From positions 1-61,811 of the forward strand of contig CANRBX010000009.1 in the NCBI GenBank assembly GCA_947628955.1: a stretch of 61,811 bases of DNA, in the 5' to 3' direction. The notes below the pieces were generated by a model. The model had not been told where the DNA came from and ran no database searches. It was given only the letters and a program-made list of their open reading frames with translations. Both the position numbers and the translations under genes were made by a program. Below are positions 26,384 through 32,481 of the stretch, piece after piece. Within the stretch, counting starts at the first letter, position 1. Every line of letters starts with the position of its first letter. The DNA comes from an uncultured Lachnospiraceae bacterium. GTDB taxonomy: Bacteria; Bacillota; Clostridia; Lachnospirales; Lachnospiraceae.

Positions 26384-26659
26384 TCAGAGGGCCGCCTCAA
26401 ATGCGGCCTTCATTTTCTCAAGGCACTCCTCATAGCTCTCGCCCGGATGGGCCTCATAGAGCTTCGCCTTTTCCGCAAAAATTGTCGGGACATAATAATA
26501 ATCATACTGCTGCGCAATCTCCGGGCTGCGGCTCTCCTCGATCCATTCCACTTCGACCCCGCCGTATTCCGGGTGTTCCTCCAGAAGTTCCTTCTGCGCC
26601 CTGCGCGCATTATGGCAATAGGGGCAGTCCTCCAGATAAAATAATGTCAGTTTCTTCAT
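26384..26659 (-). CDS. Glutaredoxin/thioredoxin-like protein
   Basis: This 91-residue protein has the N-terminal motif LFYLEDCPYCHNARR with a CPYC active site, the glutaredoxin signature, and YYYVPTIF with the conserved cis-Pro. It should reduce or form disulfides in the cytoplasm. The start at 26659 has AAAGGAG upstream, and the longer frame overlaps the hydrolase gene with no site. It is the last gene of the run tatD-rsmA-hydrolase on this strand; its stop is close to the end of the plus-strand repeat array, with no clear terminator. Confidence 0.88.
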   Translation of the reverse strand: MKKLTLFYLEDCPYCHNARRAQKELLEEHPEYGGVEVEWIEESRSPEIAQQYDYYYVPTIFAEKAKLYEAHPGESYEECLEKMKAAFEAAL

Positions 26660-26720
26660 CGCTGATCTCTCCTTTCCTGTTCCCTGCGGATCCCTTCTCC
26701 GTCCCCGGCAGGATCCTCGC

Positions 26721-27656
26721 CTACAGAAGCTGCCGGCTCTCCATCCATCCGGCAATATCCTGGTACACCTTTTCCCTGTCCAGCTCGTTCAGGATCTCGT
26801 GCCGGTCCTCCGGGTACAGGATGCATTCCACATCCTCCATGCCCGCCTCGCGGAACATGCGCTCCACGCGCCGCACGCCCTTTCCGAAACTGCCGACCGG
26901 ATCCTCTGCACCGGAGACAAACAGCACCGGAAGCTTCTTCGGCATCCGCTGCAAATCCTCGCTGCGCAGGATCTTTGACATCCCGAGAAACATATTGTAG
27001 TATCCGTTCACCGTAAACGCAAACCCGCATCTCGTATCGCGGATGTACGCGTCCACAACCTCTTCGTCCCTGCTCAGCCAGTCGCAGAGCGTGCGGTGCG
27101 GGCGGAATTTCATATTGTAACTGCCAAATGACATGAAGCGCAGCAGCATGCTCCTGTACCTCCAGCCGAACAGGCATGCCTGCGCCCGGCTGATCGCCAT
27201 TCCCAGGCGCACCAGGACCATCGGCTGATATCCCGTGCCGCAGATCACGGCACCGTCCAGTCCGTCCCCATGCTCACACAGGTACTGTCTGGCAAGGAAG
27301 GAACCCATGCTGTGCCCGAACAGAATGTACGGAACATCAGGGCAGCGTTTTTTTGCCAGGCAATATACCCGGTGAATATTCTGAATCATGAGGGCGTTGC
27401 CGTTTTTCTCCGCAAAATATCCATATTCATCCTCAGAGTCCGCGGTCGCACCATGTCCCAGATGGTCGTGCCCCACGACAAAAACCCCGCGCTGTGCCAG
27501 AAACTGCGCAAACGCACGATAACGCTCAATGTGCTCCGACATCCCGTGCAGAATCTGCACCACGGCACATGCTTTTCCCTCCGGAATCCAGCACATCCCG
27601 TGGCTTCTGATCGTCCCGTTCTGAATCGTAAAATGAAAATGCTCTTCCCGGACCAT
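26721..27656 (-). CDS. Alpha/beta hydrolase (lysophospholipase-like)
   Basis: This 311-residue cytoplasmic protein belongs to the serine hydrolase S33/lysophospholipase group. It has QILHGMSEHIERY, the oxyanion-region GHDHLGHG, the nucleophile elbow GHSMGS, an acid in SGAEDPVG and the His in DRHEIL. Family members cleave monoacylglycerols or lysophospholipids; the natural substrate is not evident. No signal peptide is seen. It lies 58 bp from rsmA and 61 bp before the glutaredoxin-like gene, so it is probably co-transcribed with them. Confidence 0.9.
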   Translation of the reverse strand: MVREEHFHFTIQNGTIRSHGMCWIPEGKACAVVQILHGMSEHIERYRAFAQFLAQRGVFVVGHDHLGHGATADSEDEYGYFAEKNGNALMIQNIHRVYCLAKKRCPDVPYILFGHSMGSFLARQYLCEHGDGLDGAVICGTGYQPMVLVRLGMAISRAQACLFGWRYRSMLLRFMSFGSYNMKFRPHRTLCDWLSRDEEVVDAYIRDTRCGFAFTVNGYYNMFLGMSKILRSEDLQRMPKKLPVLFVSGAEDPVGSFGKGVRRVERMFREAGMEDVECILYPEDRHEILNELDREKVYQDIAGWMESRQLL

Positions 27657-28625: not shown

Positions 28626-28868
28626 GAATTCATGCGCCATGCCGCTTCGCGCAGATTCATACGCTGTACAGCCGCGTGCAGATTCCTGCGGCACGCAGCT
28701 TCGCACAGATTCCTGCGACGCGCAGTTTCGCGCAGATTCCTGCACTGCGCAGCTTCGTACAGATTCATACGCTGTGCAGTCTCGCGCAGATTCCTGCACT
28801 GCACAGTTTCGTGCAGACTCCTGCGGCACGCAGCTTCACACAGGTTCCTGCATCGCGCAGATTCATGC
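28626..28868 (-). repeat. 27-bp tandem repeat, nine units, starting at the tatD stop
   Basis: Units begin at 28626, 28653, 28680, 28707, 28734, 28761, 28788, 28815 and 28842. On the minus strand each resembles the end of tatD (GCGAAGCTGCGCAGAGCATG plus a few bases), with the stop TGA usually changed to a sense codon. Because the unit is nine codons long, frames stay open on both strands, but the reading frame of tatD itself stops twice at the array's start. Confidence 0.9.
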
Positions 28869-29639
28869 TCTGCGCAGCTTCGCATAAACCTGGTGCGCGT
28901 TCTCCCAGACTGCGGATTCAACCTCCTGCGCCATCATTCCCCTGATACGTGCGATCTCTTCAATGACAAGCGGCAGATACAAAGAAGAATTGCGTTTGCC
29001 GCGGTTAGGGGCCGGCGCCAGATACGGGCAGTCCGTCTCCACGACAATCCGCTCAATCGGAACCGCCGCGGCCACTTCCTTCATGACCCGCGCATTTTTA
29101 AACGTCACCACACCGCCGATCCCGATATAATACCCCAGCTTCACATACTCCAGCGCCATCTGCGCCGACGAGGAAAAGCAGTGGATGATCCCTCCGGTGG
29201 TCCCGGCATGGTACTTTTTCATAATGTCAAAGGTGTCCTGCGCAGCTTCCCGGCTGTGAATATTGACCGGCAGCCCGGTGTCCTTCGCCATCTGAAGCTG
29301 CCGGATGAACCACTGCTTCTGAAATTCGTGCGCTTCTTTATCCCAGTAATAGTCCAGGCCGATCTCTCCGACCGCCACCGTCTTCGGCCGCCGGCACAGC
29401 TCGTACATCCACAGGAGCGTTTTCTCGTCCAGCGCCCCCACCTCGTCCGGGTGCACCCCGACCGCGGCATAGATAAACGGATACTGCTGCGCCAGCTCCT
29501 GGCTCGCGCGGATCCCCCGGACGGATGCGCCCACATTTACGATCCCTCCGATCCCTGCGGACCCCATCTGGCCGAGCAGCTCCTGCCGGTCCTTGTCAAA
29601 AGCCTCATCATCATAATGCGCATGCGTGTCGAAAATCAT
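28863..29639 (-). CDS. tatD: TatD-family metal-dependent hydrolase
   Basis: This 258-residue protein has a TIM-barrel fold with metal ligands FDTHAHYDD, GEIGLDYYW, HSREA, HCFS and ETDCPYLAP. TatD proteins are 3'-5' exonucleases/deoxyribonucleases acting in DNA repair and degradation. The start at 29639 is preceded by AGGGGAGG and overlaps the stop of the membrane Fe-S gene by ATGA, which implies coupled translation. Its own 3' end is the seed of the 27-bp array that follows. Confidence 0.95.
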   Translation of the reverse strand: MIFDTHAHYDDEAFDKDRQELLGQMGSAGIGGIVNVGASVRGIRASQELAQQYPFIYAAVGVHPDEVGALDEKTLLWMYELCRRPKTVAVGEIGLDYYWDKEAHEFQKQWFIRQLQMAKDTGLPVNIHSREAAQDTFDIMKKYHAGTTGGIIHCFSSSAQMALEYVKLGYYIGIGGVVTFKNARVMKEVAAAVPIERIVVETDCPYLAPAPNRGKRNSSLYLPLVIEEIARIRGMMAQEVESAVWENAHQVYAKLRRA

Positions 29640-30517
29640 GTTGTCCTCCCCTTTTGTCTTGTCTGTGGCCCGCATCTTCTTATCGCACTCTGTCTGCATG
29701 CCCTCAGGCAGGCGCCGCACCGGATACATTCTCTGCTGTTAGCCTCATCCCGGACGCACAGATCCATTCCGCAGGCCTCCCGGCATCTTCCGCACCCGGT
29801 ACATTTTTCTGCGTCTATTTCATATCGATAAAAAGCGATCGGATTAAGCAGCCCGTAAACTGCGCCGAGCGGACACAGATATTTGCAGAACGGCCTGTAG
29901 TAAAAAACCGCTCCTGCCACGCAGAAGAAAAGGATCAGCACTTTCCACCGGAACAGCCACCCCACCGCACTGCGCAGGGAGAGATTGGACAGTACCAGCG
30001 GGATTCCCGCCAGAAGCGTCCCGCTCGGGCATATGTACTTGCAGAACCAGGGCTGTCCCTGACCAAGGAAATCCGTCACAGCAATGGGCAGCAGAATCAC
30101 AAAGACCGCAAGTATCACATACTTTATCCGTACAAGCACACGATGTCCCGGCAGATTTTTCCTTTTGAACGGGACAGGGATCCGGTGCAGCAGATCCTGC
30201 ACAAGGCCGAACGGGCAGAGCCATCCGCAGACAAAACGCCCGAACATGGCCCCGATCACCATAAAAAAGCCCAACAGATAGAATGACACCCTGTAATTGC
30301 GGGAACCGAGAACCGCCTGCAGCGCTCCGATCGGGCAGGAGCCGAGCGCCCCCGGGCACGAATAGCAGCTCAGGCCGGGAACACACAGATTCTTCCATGG
30401 TCCCGTATAGATTTTTCCCTTCAGAAAGCCCGCCGCATACCCGTTTGTCACAGCGGCAAAGATCATCTGCACCCACAGGCGGATATTCTTTTTCAGGTCT
30501 CTGATCTTCTCAGCCAA
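29636..30517 (-). CDS. Membrane 4Fe-4S protein (NapH/YccM-like)
   Basis: This protein of about 293 residues has several membrane helices carrying the polyferredoxin motifs CGWLCPFG, CKYICPSG and CKYLCPLG, and an early SCYSCPG/SCPIGA region. Two soluble clusters close the protein: CTGCGRCREAC and CIRCGACLRAC. Family members move electrons from cytoplasmic carriers across the membrane. The proposed TTG start at 30517 overlaps the end of the CXXC peptide gene, ten bases after a GGAG; a longer frame to 30574 exists without a good site. With the TlpA-like protein and the CXXC peptide it forms a likely trans-membrane thiol-reducing chain. Confidence 0.85.
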   Translation of the reverse strand: MAEKIRDLKKNIRLWVQMIFAAVTNGYAAGFLKGKIYTGPWKNLCVPGLSCYSCPGALGSCPIGALQAVLGSRNYRVSFYLLGFFMVIGAMFGRFVCGWLCPFGLVQDLLHRIPVPFKRKNLPGHRVLVRIKYVILAVFVILLPIAVTDFLGQGQPWFCKYICPSGTLLAGIPLVLSNLSLRSAVGWLFRWKVLILFFCVAGAVFYYRPFCKYLCPLGAVYGLLNPIAFYRYEIDAEKCTGCGRCREACGMDLCVRDEANSRECIRCGACLRACRQSAIRRCGPQTRQKGRTT

Positions 30518-30656
30518 TTCCAATACACTCCAGACATATTCTTGTCGCCTTGAGGAACACCTCGGCCATTTCACCGCGTGCTATGCCGATTCCCAGAAAC
30601 AGAATACCGCCCGCGAGCAGCCCCAGCCGTACTATATTCCGCTGCGTCCTGTTCAT
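30510..30656 (-). CDS. CD1871A-type CXXC membrane peptide
   Basis: This 48-residue peptide has one membrane helix (LGLLAGGILFLGIGIARGE) and the C-terminal motif ICLECIGIG, matching the small CXXC family first annotated in Clostridioides as CD1871A. It is short enough to be missed by gene finders. It lies 72 bp after the TlpA-like gene and overlaps the start of the membrane Fe-S gene, so the three are one unit. The CXXC pair could relay electrons or bind a cluster or metal; this is inference. Confidence 0.85.
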   Translation of the reverse strand: MNRTQRNIVRLGLLAGGILFLGIGIARGEMAEVFLKATRICLECIGIG

Positions 30657-30728
30657 ATCCGTTTCCTTTCAGTTTGATTTCTCTTTAATCTCGATTCGAT
30701 TTCCGTCAATCTTATTTTTCTGTCCGGA

Positions 30729-31541
30729 TCACGATTCCTGCTCCGTCTCCGCTTCCTCCAGCAGCTCCCCGATGATCTGACTCCATGCCTCCCTGTCTCG
30801 GGCGCCTACGTAAATCTCCCCCACCTGATTTCCCTCATCGTCCACAAATACCGTGGTGGGAACCGCCTGTACCTCCTGGAGGTAACCATAATACAGATCC
30901 TCCGACAAAAGCAGATGCACATAGTCGGCCTTCGTCTCCTTGATGATCATCCGGGCGGCCTCCGCCGTATCACTCTCCGTATCCACAACATCCGAGATCA
31001 GGCCGATGATCTGAAGGCCCTCATCCTCATAGTCCTTTGCCAGCTCTCCGAGCTCCGGCATCTCCCGAATGCACGGCCCGCAGTAGGTCGCCCAGATATT
31101 CACCATATTCAGCCCGGCATCCGCAAATATACTCTGGTTCATGTCCCCGCCGTCCAGGGTCTTCGTTTCAAATGCTCCGAACACATCGCCGACAGCTGTA
31201 TCAGACGTATCCGCCGGATCATTCATTTCAGCAGGTTCGTTCGTTTCTGCAGGTTCGGCCTCTTCAGCCGATTTATCCGTTTCTGCAGATTCGGCCCTGT
31301 CAGCCGATTCATCCGTTTCTGCAGGTTCGGCCCCGTCAGCTGATTCGTCCGTTTCTGCAGGTTCGGTCTCTTCAGCCGATTCGTCCGTTTCTGCAGGTTC
31401 GGCCTCGTCGGTTATTTTAGTCGACACAGTTTCGCCTGTCCGCTCTGCGGCCAGACCGCGTGCACCGGAAATTAATGCACCGGATGCAGCCAGCATCAGG
31501 CACAGCCCGCACCCAAGTAATTTCATGTTCTCATATCTCAT
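30729..31541 (-). CDS. Secreted TlpA/ResA-type thiol-disulfide protein
   Basis: This 270-residue exported protein has an N-terminal signal sequence (KLLGCGLCLMLAASGALISG), then an acidic linker of about five 12-residue units (EPAETDESADxA), then a thioredoxin-fold domain of the TlpA/ResA type. The domain has VNIWATYCGPCIREMPEL with the CGPC active site and the cis-Pro in VQAVPTTVFV. A cysteine in LLGCG could act as a lipobox, so it may be a lipoprotein. It should reduce or exchange disulfides outside the membrane. It heads the operon with the CXXC peptide and the membrane Fe-S protein, which may recycle its active site. Confidence 0.9.
   Translation of the reverse strand: MRYENMKLLGCGLCLMLAASGALISGARGLAAERTGETVSTKITDEAEPAETDESAEETEPAETDESADGAEPAETDESADRAESAETDKSAEEAEPAETNEPAEMNDPADTSDTAVGDVFGAFETKTLDGGDMNQSIFADAGLNMVNIWATYCGPCIREMPELGELAKDYEDEGLQIIGLISDVVDTESDTAEAARMIIKETKADYVHLLLSEDLYYGYLQEVQAVPTTVFVDDEGNQVGEIYVGARDREAWSQIIGELLEEAETEQES
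31243..31410 (-). repeat. 36-bp in-frame tandem repeat in the TlpA-like gene
   Basis: Units start at 31243, 31279, 31315, 31351 and 31387 (the last partial) and encode 12-residue acidic repeats between the signal sequence and the catalytic domain. Confidence 0.9.
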
Positions 31542-31576: not shown

Positions 31577-31605
31577 ATTATACTATATTAATATTGTTCG
31601 CACAA
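31577..31605 (-). promoter_or_regulatory. Promoter of the TlpA/CXXC/Fe-S operon
   Basis: TTGTGC at 31600-31605, a 17-bp spacer and TATAAT at 31577-31582, about 35 bp upstream of the TlpA start. Confidence 0.65.
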
Positions 31606-31669
31606 TTCCAAATTCGCCTGCATTTCTAAATCTGTTTCCATATGCCTGCTATTTCCAGCTATGCTTTTC

Positions 31670-31815
31670 AGAATCCCAGGCGCAGCTATAATCCGTATCA
31701 GTTCTTATACTCTCGCCAATCGGTATAAGCAGTTTCTTCATCAAAGCAATTAAACCTTTCCGCCTGTGACTGCCTGATTCTTCAGCCTGTCCTTTACCGA
31801 TACTGCACTTGTCAT
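31670..31815 (-). pseudogene. Remnant of AbiEii-type toxin gene
   Basis: The ATG at 31815 overlaps the AbiEi stop as ATGA and begins MTSAVSVKDRLKNQA, the usual N-terminus of AbiEii nucleotidyltransferase toxins. After 21 codons the frame is closed by stops, yet in the same frame a further family-like stretch CLYRLARV is still visible before more stops. The rest of a normal toxin of about 250-300 residues is missing. The toxin is therefore dead, most likely by deletion plus point decay. Confidence 0.75.
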
Positions 31816-32396
31816 ACGAGCACCTCCAGATACTGCCGCATAGTCTTCTCACATTTCATAAGTTCTGCATACCTCAGAAGCCTGTTCAGGTTTCGGTCTT
31901 TTCTTCGCAGATACGTAACCAGAATTTCCTTTGTCTCTTCGGCCCCGATCTTTTCTCTGTAAAACACGATATCGACGACCGTTTTTTCCATATCGTAAAT
32001 CATGAATCCATTTTTTCCCTCTTCGACTTTCGTAACGCCCAGCTTATGTCGTTCATCCGTATAATGATGAACATTCATCTGCGGCCAGTCCGGTATTGTG
32101 GATATCCTGGCTTTTCGCGGTATTGCTACATCTACAGAATCCGGAATGAACGATGTCAGATTATAGTAAACCGCCGCGCTGAGCAGACAGATCACACCAT
32201 CCGGCGCATACGCCCCCATATAATAGAAGTCCGATTCTTCTCCGTGATACTCGGCATTCTCATAGTATCTCTTATTTAGTTTTATAAGTTTTCCATCACT
32301 GACCAGTTTACTGACCTTATATTGCGAGAAACCTTTCTTTTTAAGTTCCTGCATGGAAAAAATTTTCTGATCCTCAGGAAGCACTGCTGCATCCAT
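31812..32396 (-). CDS. AbiEi-type antitoxin/transcriptional regulator
   Basis: This 194-residue protein has an N-terminal winged helix (FSMQELKKKGFSQYKVSKLV, GKLIKLNKRYYE) and a C-terminal domain (LLSAAVYYNLTSFIPDSVDV, ending with RRKDRNLNRLLRYAELM) like AbiEi of type IV toxin-antitoxin systems. Such proteins repress their own promoter and counter a nucleotidyltransferase toxin. The ATG at 32396 follows GGGGATGG; the longer frame from 32444 is less likely. The frame is intact although the partner toxin is broken, so it may persist as an orphan regulator. AT content is higher than in the trp operon beside it, which suggests acquisition. Confidence 0.85.
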   Translation of the reverse strand: MDAAVLPEDQKIFSMQELKKKGFSQYKVSKLVSDGKLIKLNKRYYENAEYHGEESDFYYMGAYAPDGVICLLSAAVYYNLTSFIPDSVDVAIPRKARISTIPDWPQMNVHHYTDERHKLGVTKVEEGKNGFMIYDMEKTVVDIVFYREKIGAEETKEILVTYLRRKDRNLNRLLRYAELMKCEKTMRQYLEVLV

Positions 32397-32481
32397 CGTC
32401 TTTCCATCCCCTTTTCGCTCCGGACAAAACTGAACAGATGTCATTTGACCTGCACACCTCGATATAGATTTTTAATTTATT

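Follow-up and report, generated by a model that had tools for sequence, protein, structure and literature searches.

Could three adjacent genes of an uncultured Lachnospiraceae bacterium encode a route by which reducing power crosses the membrane to thiols on the outside? The genes lie on the minus strand of contig CANRBX010000009.1 (assembly GCA_947628955.1; positions 1 to 61,811, the whole stretch of 61,811 nucleotides analysed here and called the window) and, as read from the open reading frames and the sequence, encode in this order a TlpA-like protein, a peptide with a CXXC tail and a 4Fe-4S membrane protein that resembles NapH. The original prediction for this DNA took them for a three-part module that carries electrons from ferredoxin to extracytoplasmic disulfides, in the role that CcdA/DsbD plays elsewhere; open reading frames, sequence and profile matches agree that the set is present. 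Our analysis indicates that it is probably an outward transmembrane thiol-reduction system that is not homologous to CcdA/DsbD. For this core idea there is good support from anatomy and evolution, and we infer its function, namely the direction of electron flow, the donor, the client and the cluster ligation.

The peptide and the NapH-like protein form a constant pair

The peptide belongs to the NCBIfam family NF040920 (CD1871A), which it matches with 52.5 bits (E 3.3e-14) at a cut-off of 32. We searched for this family in a class sample of 391 genomes of the window's class and in a phylum sample of 398 genomes. It was found in 71 class genomes and in 60 phylum-sample genomes (45 over the cut-off), and within the genome that the window comes from, a protein-level search returned it once, at this locus. 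The wider surroundings were taken for the 72 other peptide places of the class search and for the window, 73 in all. Loci and genomes are cited by L and G numbers where they have to be told apart. Two places were removed, G168, whose peptide match is without both cysteines, and G270, whose peptide is truncated at a contig end and whose NapH-like gene is on another contig, which left 71 usable loci. In all 71, the NapH-like gene lies at most 259 nucleotides downstream of the peptide gene or is fused to it, and the two genes mostly overlap when the longest frame is taken. Among the best 80 of at least 589 NapH-like relatives (the named loci, which are biased to close relatives and include spirochaetes such as Treponema berlinense), a peptide lies within 500 nucleotides of the NapH-like gene in 80 of 80; a first pattern found 71 of these peptides and inspection the other nine, and a relaxed pattern gets all 80.

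The genome-wide co-occurrence that had been proposed as a check was borne out for this pair. A NapH-like subfamily profile built from 26 rows matched 72 of the 391 class genomes at 1e-40 or better and 70 of them at 5e-73 or better. With G168 and two genomes with NapH-like matches at 1e-50 (G201 and G242; all others 5e-73 or better) set aside as marginal, these 70 genomes, G270 included, are exactly the peptide genomes, and neither partner occurs alone. Because the linkage, which had been named as a test, holds at every one of the 71 usable and the 80 named loci, the set is not a product of chance. That unrelated redox genes are merely linked here and have no joint function is highly improbable, given the co-occurrence, the adjacency in all usable loci, the two kinds of fusion described below and the presence of several copies of the set within a single genome.

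Counting neighbours within 1.4 kb, we found a TlpA gene near the set in 63 of the 71 usable loci (all on the same strand; 36 upstream, 24 downstream and three fused to the NapH-like gene) and in 67 of the 80 named loci. The pair of peptide and NapH-like protein is therefore the core of the module, and TlpA is its usual outlet and not obligate. Seven loci (L036, L037, L041, L046, L055, L063 and L094) hold peptide and NapH-like protein and no TlpA nearby despite sequence on both sides.

Several genomes carry the set more than once. G815 has five copies (L204-L208), every one with its own TlpA-like frame, although L206 has shortened frames for both the NapH-like protein and TlpA. Two copies occur in at least three other genomes, G781 and G833 (L209-L212) and G354 (L039-L040) among them. 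The copies may serve different clients. In L213 (G798), the peptide frame appears frameshifted next to a NapH-like gene with a full-length match.

Conserved cysteines in the three proteins

The TlpA-like protein passes the gathering scores of Redoxin (PF08534, 41.4 bits versus 26.6) and AhpC-TSA, carries a CGPC site, and has Streptococcus pneumoniae Etrx2 (4HQZ, 2YP6) as its nearest solved relative by sequence. Longer TlpA-like proteins of the set, read by eye, have lipoprotein-like starts and diverse N-terminal parts, and one has two thioredoxin-like halves; the same reading gave no obvious case of MsrAB among them.

The NapH-like protein is above the gathering score for Fer4_5 and Fer4, and an alignment puts two CX3CP and two Fer4 motifs in register with Escherichia coli NapH. 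It has 18 conserved cysteines (in 26 rows, 17 are invariant and one almost so; in 79 rows, all 18 are invariant), which is compatible with the predicted minimum of four cysteine clusters. Six of the 18 are predicted to lie outside and are absent from E. coli NapH, the only NapH compared. When the structure model of the window's NapH-like protein was searched with Foldseek and VIA, no match at E 0.001 or better was obtained in a search that essentially covered the ferredoxin domain and barely the membrane part, and we therefore do not propose a new fold. Neither DsbD_TM (PF02683), among Pfam matches up to E 0.01, nor an FTR family, among Pfam and NCBIfam matches up to the same value, was found for any of the three proteins; we assume that these libraries hold a model of the FTR catalytic chain.

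The peptide tail follows the consensus KAxx[ILV]CxEC[IV]G[IL]G in nearly all loci, and in 67 of 71 the C-terminus falls exactly at CxxCxGxG. A mixed alignment of peptide-only and NapH-like sequences mis-aligned the tail onto the loop-1 cysteine motif and was discarded. The peptide family had been described as having no known function; it is named in NCBIfam, and we found no function described for it in a literature search that covered open-licence papers, where the name CD1871A gave no match.

UGA codons at the active sites

Six loci (L032, L044, L089, L098, L099 and L100) have an in-frame UGA at the first active-site cysteine of TlpA, in the context WTTT-U-PSC and similar; cysteine occupies that position in L096, whose genus also includes three of the six. 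In L046, UGA replaces the first cysteine of the peptide CXXC. SelB was tested in 20 of the 70 set-bearing genomes and was over the cut-off in ten, including all seven with an active-site UGA; in the ten SelB-less genomes, the window's own among them, no active-site UGA was seen. Because UGA stands for the first cysteine in SelB-bearing genomes, the CXXC positions of TlpA and the peptide look like redox sites. A selenoproteome review lists a UGC-containing TlpA family in the part of its text consulted, and we noticed no entry for the CD1871A peptide in that part (PMC13188914).

These codons also bear on a different role for the peptide, that of a structural or assembly subunit which, for example, loads the outer cysteine site, while TlpA keeps those cysteines reduced during assembly and is not the recipient. 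A short CXXC-tailed peptide that never occurs without the NapH-like protein would suit a subunit. The UGA at the first cysteine of the peptide in one SelB-bearing genome indicates redox chemistry instead, and the conserved free C-terminal tail would fit a mobile arm, so we consider an assembly role rather unlikely.

Fusions and the likely topology

In two loci of one genus from the window's own family (L069 and L070), the peptide is a C-terminal extension of the NapH-like protein. In three others (L052, L056 and L066, from two genera of one other family), the NapH-like protein continues through a linker and a hydrophobic helix, recognised by eye, into TlpA. In these same three loci, the peptide forms the C-terminus of a membrane protein of 273-303 amino acids. 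By eye, the TlpA-like proteins of the set begin with signal or lipoprotein-like sequences, and only one helix separates the ferredoxin domain from TlpA in the fusions; therefore the ferredoxin domain should lie inside. The fusions would thus put the CXXC sites of TlpA and the peptide outside, and the likely topology, which suits outward electron transfer, is supported.

Quinone, cytochrome c and CcdA/DsbD markers

PF02683 was over the cut-off in 21 of the 70 genomes with the set and in 174 of the 321 without it (odds ratio 0.36, Fisher p 3e-4, without control for phylogeny); two of 197 fell short of the cut-off, and we took these to be G000 and G088, which have the weakest E-values. The other 49 set-bearing genomes have no DsbD_TM match over the cut-off, and the window's own genome shows a single weak match to PF02683 (E 8e-4). 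CcdA/DsbD is thus depleted and not excluded in genomes with the set, and the expectation that such genomes lack ccdA/dsbD is weakened.

MenD was over the cut-off in none of the 70 set genomes, and MqnA-like proteins and ResB were each found in one, ResB being absent from the window's own genome. Because the menaquinone markers and ResB are nearly absent, a quinol donor or a role in cytochrome c maturation is unlikely in most hosts, and the near absence of menaquinone markers makes ferredoxin the likelier electron donor. The same counts speak against a quinol-linked NapH-type module in which TlpA is a ResA-type cytochrome c maturation protein, with the reservation that an imported or otherwise-made quinone would escape them. 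Such a module could draw on the similarity of the membrane protein to NapH/MauN (TIGR02163, 62.2 bits) and of the TlpA-like protein to ResA (NF002854, 50.9 bits), but both scores are far below the curated cut-offs of 213.05 and 170, and we regard it as improbable.

Proposed mechanism and its weight

In the scheme that we propose, a cytoplasmic donor, reduced ferredoxin or another, would load the 2[4Fe-4S] domain of the NapH-like protein, from which electrons would pass to the CX3CP cysteines at the inner face (C103/C107 and C217/C221, in the numbering of the 299-amino-acid alignment). They would then cross the membrane to another six conserved cysteines (C51, C57, C60, C67, C165 and C169), which would reduce a disulfide in the C-terminal CXXC tail of the peptide. 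This tail, held by a one-helix anchor, would act as a mobile arm and pass the reduction to the TlpA-like protein, which in turn would reduce clients in the cell envelope, typical candidates being methionine sulfoxide reductase and sulfenylated proteins. The system would work like CcdA/DsbD with FTR-like chemistry and be a member of neither family.

Several observations weigh against this scheme. Its support comes from sequence analysis, from which we infer the direction and the donor. The fusions may represent about two events only. Loop 1 is net positively charged, by +3.1 on average, and the hydropathy of helix 1 remains below the threshold; both points oppose an outside placement of loop 1, where the confidence of the structure model is also lowest. 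Three of the ten SelB genomes (G054, G178 and G243) show no UGA, although in G178 TlpA is off the contig. The peptide UGA was single among the class, phylum and family-directed searches, the family search around it having yielded no second case in 96 genomes, and its hairpin in L046 is no better than shuffles (z -0.33). Eight genomes match MenD below the cut-off, G384 over the full length with 156 of 244 bits. The 21 set genomes with PF02683 argue against a simple replacement of CcdA.

Finally, TlpA was not found nearby in eight of the 71 usable loci (L034 among these is cut by a contig end) or in 13 of the 80 named loci, where UGA-split TlpA was not looked for; some loci without a nearby TlpA are truncated by contig ends. 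Such a constant pair with a variable third member would also be expected if the same module had another flow, in which electrons come from outside thiols to the NapH-like protein, or go from it to a non-thiol acceptor, and TlpA is only one of several partners. TlpA/ResA/Etrx-type proteins of known role are reductants, and clostridial-type 2[4Fe-4S] ferredoxin donors have a low potential; both points argue against another flow, which we judge unlikely, though the strongest competitor to outward thiol reduction. Etrx2 is an example of such a reductant (PMC3914529).

Beyond the outward system itself, we see an evenly balanced case for a broader statement. It would describe a non-homologous transmembrane route for reducing outside thiols in which low-potential iron-sulfur (Fe-S) centres replace NADPH and thioredoxin, a roughly 48-residue peptide serves as the constant transfer arm of a NapH-derived protein with an outer-face cysteine site, and some SelB-bearing lineages have a selenocysteine upgrade; it would operate in many Clostridia and some spirochaetes, often without CcdA or quinone synthesis. 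If the mechanism is true, the CD1871A peptide family gains a role, a further transmembrane electron route exists that is neither CcdA/DsbD nor VKOR/DsbB, and a mechanism becomes available for an operon tied by a preprint to immune side effects of cancer therapy. It also becomes testable how anaerobes without quinones of their own keep extracytoplasmic proteins reduced.

Layout of the locus and its neighbours

The features of the locus are collected in Table 1. Overlap of the genes, as originally predicted, holds for the peptide and the NapH-like protein, whose TTG at 30517 is most likely the start and gives an overlap of 8 nucleotides, but not for TlpA and the peptide, which are separated by a gap of 72 nucleotides. 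The next gene, presumably coding for a tatD-like protein, has an ATG at 29639 that overlaps the stop codon of the NapH-like gene by 4 nucleotides, and the transcription unit may therefore extend further. The proposed single promoter comes down to one weak consensus match, in a scan of both strands of the region that gave four matches versus 1.9 expected.

Table 1. Coordinates of the features of the three-gene set and its surroundings in the window
Feature	Position	Strand	Basis
TlpA-like thioredoxin-fold protein, 270 amino acids, acidic repeat linker, CGPC site, N-terminal signal/anchor by eye	30729..31541	-	Profile matches
CGPC active-site codons of the TlpA-like protein	31071..31082	-	Sequence reading
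CD1871A-family peptide, 48 amino acids, one hydrophobic helix, C-terminus ...KATRICLECIGIG-COOH	30510..30656	-	NF040920 match
CLEC codons (CXXC) of the peptide tail	30525..30536	-	Sequence reading; tail conservation
NapH/MauN-like 4Fe-4S membrane protein, 293 amino acids from TTG start (start unproven)	29636..30517	-	Profiles, alignments, sequence reading
Alternative GTG start of the NapH-like longest frame	30574	-	Sequence reading
NapH-like loop-1 four-cysteine motif C-x5-C-x2-C-x6-C, probably on the extracytoplasmic side, lacking in E. coli NapH	30335..30385	-	Alignment and topology prediction
NapH-like CX3CP after helix 2, predicted cytoplasmic side, common with E. coli NapH	30212..30229	-	Alignment and topology prediction
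NapH-like CX3CP in loop 3, predicted extracytoplasmic side, lacking in E. coli NapH	30026..30043	-	Alignment and topology prediction
NapH-like CX3CP after helix 4, predicted cytoplasmic side, common with E. coli NapH	29870..29887	-	Alignment and topology prediction
NapH-like C-terminal 2[4Fe-4S] ferredoxin domain, predicted cytoplasmic	29696..29803	-	
Promoter-like match 5′ of the TlpA gene, weak, 9/12 consensus	31582..31611	-	Promoter scan
Next gene, 4-nucleotide overlap with the NapH-like stop, not thought part of the system	28863..29639	-	Sequence reading

Acidic repeats (ETDESAE / EPAETDESAD) join the signal to the thioredoxin domain of the TlpA-like protein (window 31200-31410, minus strand). 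A small CPYC protein, glutaredoxin-like by eye, is encoded a few genes off (26384-26755, minus strand), and the protein upstream of the set (31812-32444, minus strand) appears to resemble an AbiEi-type antitoxin regulator.

When the neighbours of 153 loci were clustered, no client gene was among the four clusters found in at least seven loci; one cluster consisted of antisense frames of the NapH-like gene and was rejected as an artefact, and the others were ABC ATPases, response regulators and histidine kinases. In 16 of the 153 loci, a response regulator is found no more than 430 bp from the set, often divergently (L087, L145, L103, L146, L085, L068, L040, L095, L079, L180, L035, L091, L137, L179, L090 and L082; the background rate is unmeasured), and histidine kinases lie near some. 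Control by envelope stress is possible. A NapH-like gene and a CD1871A peptide are also found on an 809-kb replicon of Peptoclostridium acidaminophilum (H1, NZ_CP007453.1:781426-782244), the only match in a plasmid collection; this single match is insufficient to regard the set as a mobile element.

Comparison with known systems

An operon with, by its description, the same three-gene make-up as the set in the window appears in a preprint of November 2025, which calls it 'previously uncharacterized' and assigns to it a 4Fe-4S protein, a TlpA and a CxxC protein (PMC12637426). According to that preprint, the contigs with the operon were assigned to six species of Clostridia and to one taxon at the Firmicutes level; TlpA always neighbours the 4Fe-4S gene, and the CxxC gene separates the two in every case except one. 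The operon, which is tied to immune side effects of cancer therapy, could possibly reduce extracellular targets. In the parts of its text consulted, we noticed neither fusions nor selenocysteine, no evidence of co-occurrence across genomes and no mechanism worked out in detail, and in the open-licence literature found no mechanism or experimental test of the three-gene set in print. Calling the set an undescribed system, as was originally done, therefore needs qualification; a function of the peptide family was not found in that literature.

The membrane module with two CX3CP motifs resembles NapH, MauN, NosR and RdhC, and the C-terminal 2[4Fe-4S] domain resembles NapH and NosR, as far as the consulted part of PMC5928378 describes them. 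In contrast to NapH-type proteins, the NapH-like protein has six extra conserved cysteines (compared with E. coli NapH) and a constant CXXC peptide partner, and its hosts nearly lack menaquinone markers.

In FTR, an Fe-S centre gives electrons to a disulfide and then to thioredoxin, and the proposed path from an Fe-S centre through a disulfide to a thioredoxin fold is alike. In contrast to FTR, the set is membrane-bound and, as proposed, outward-facing, and its proteins have no FTR family match at the threshold given above.

The nearest physiological parallel is CcdA/DsbD, with the CcdA2-Etrx2-MsrAB2 pathway of S. pneumoniae, in which reducing power is delivered to an outside TlpA/Etrx-type protein and Etrx2 acts after CcdA2, according to the portion of the source consulted (PMC3914529). 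The window proteins differ in having no DsbD/CcdA family match at that same threshold, and in the proposed scheme electrons are carried by an Fe-S membrane protein together with a CXXC peptide. We accordingly rate what is new as transmembrane thiol reduction, a known kind of process, carried out by non-homologous means.

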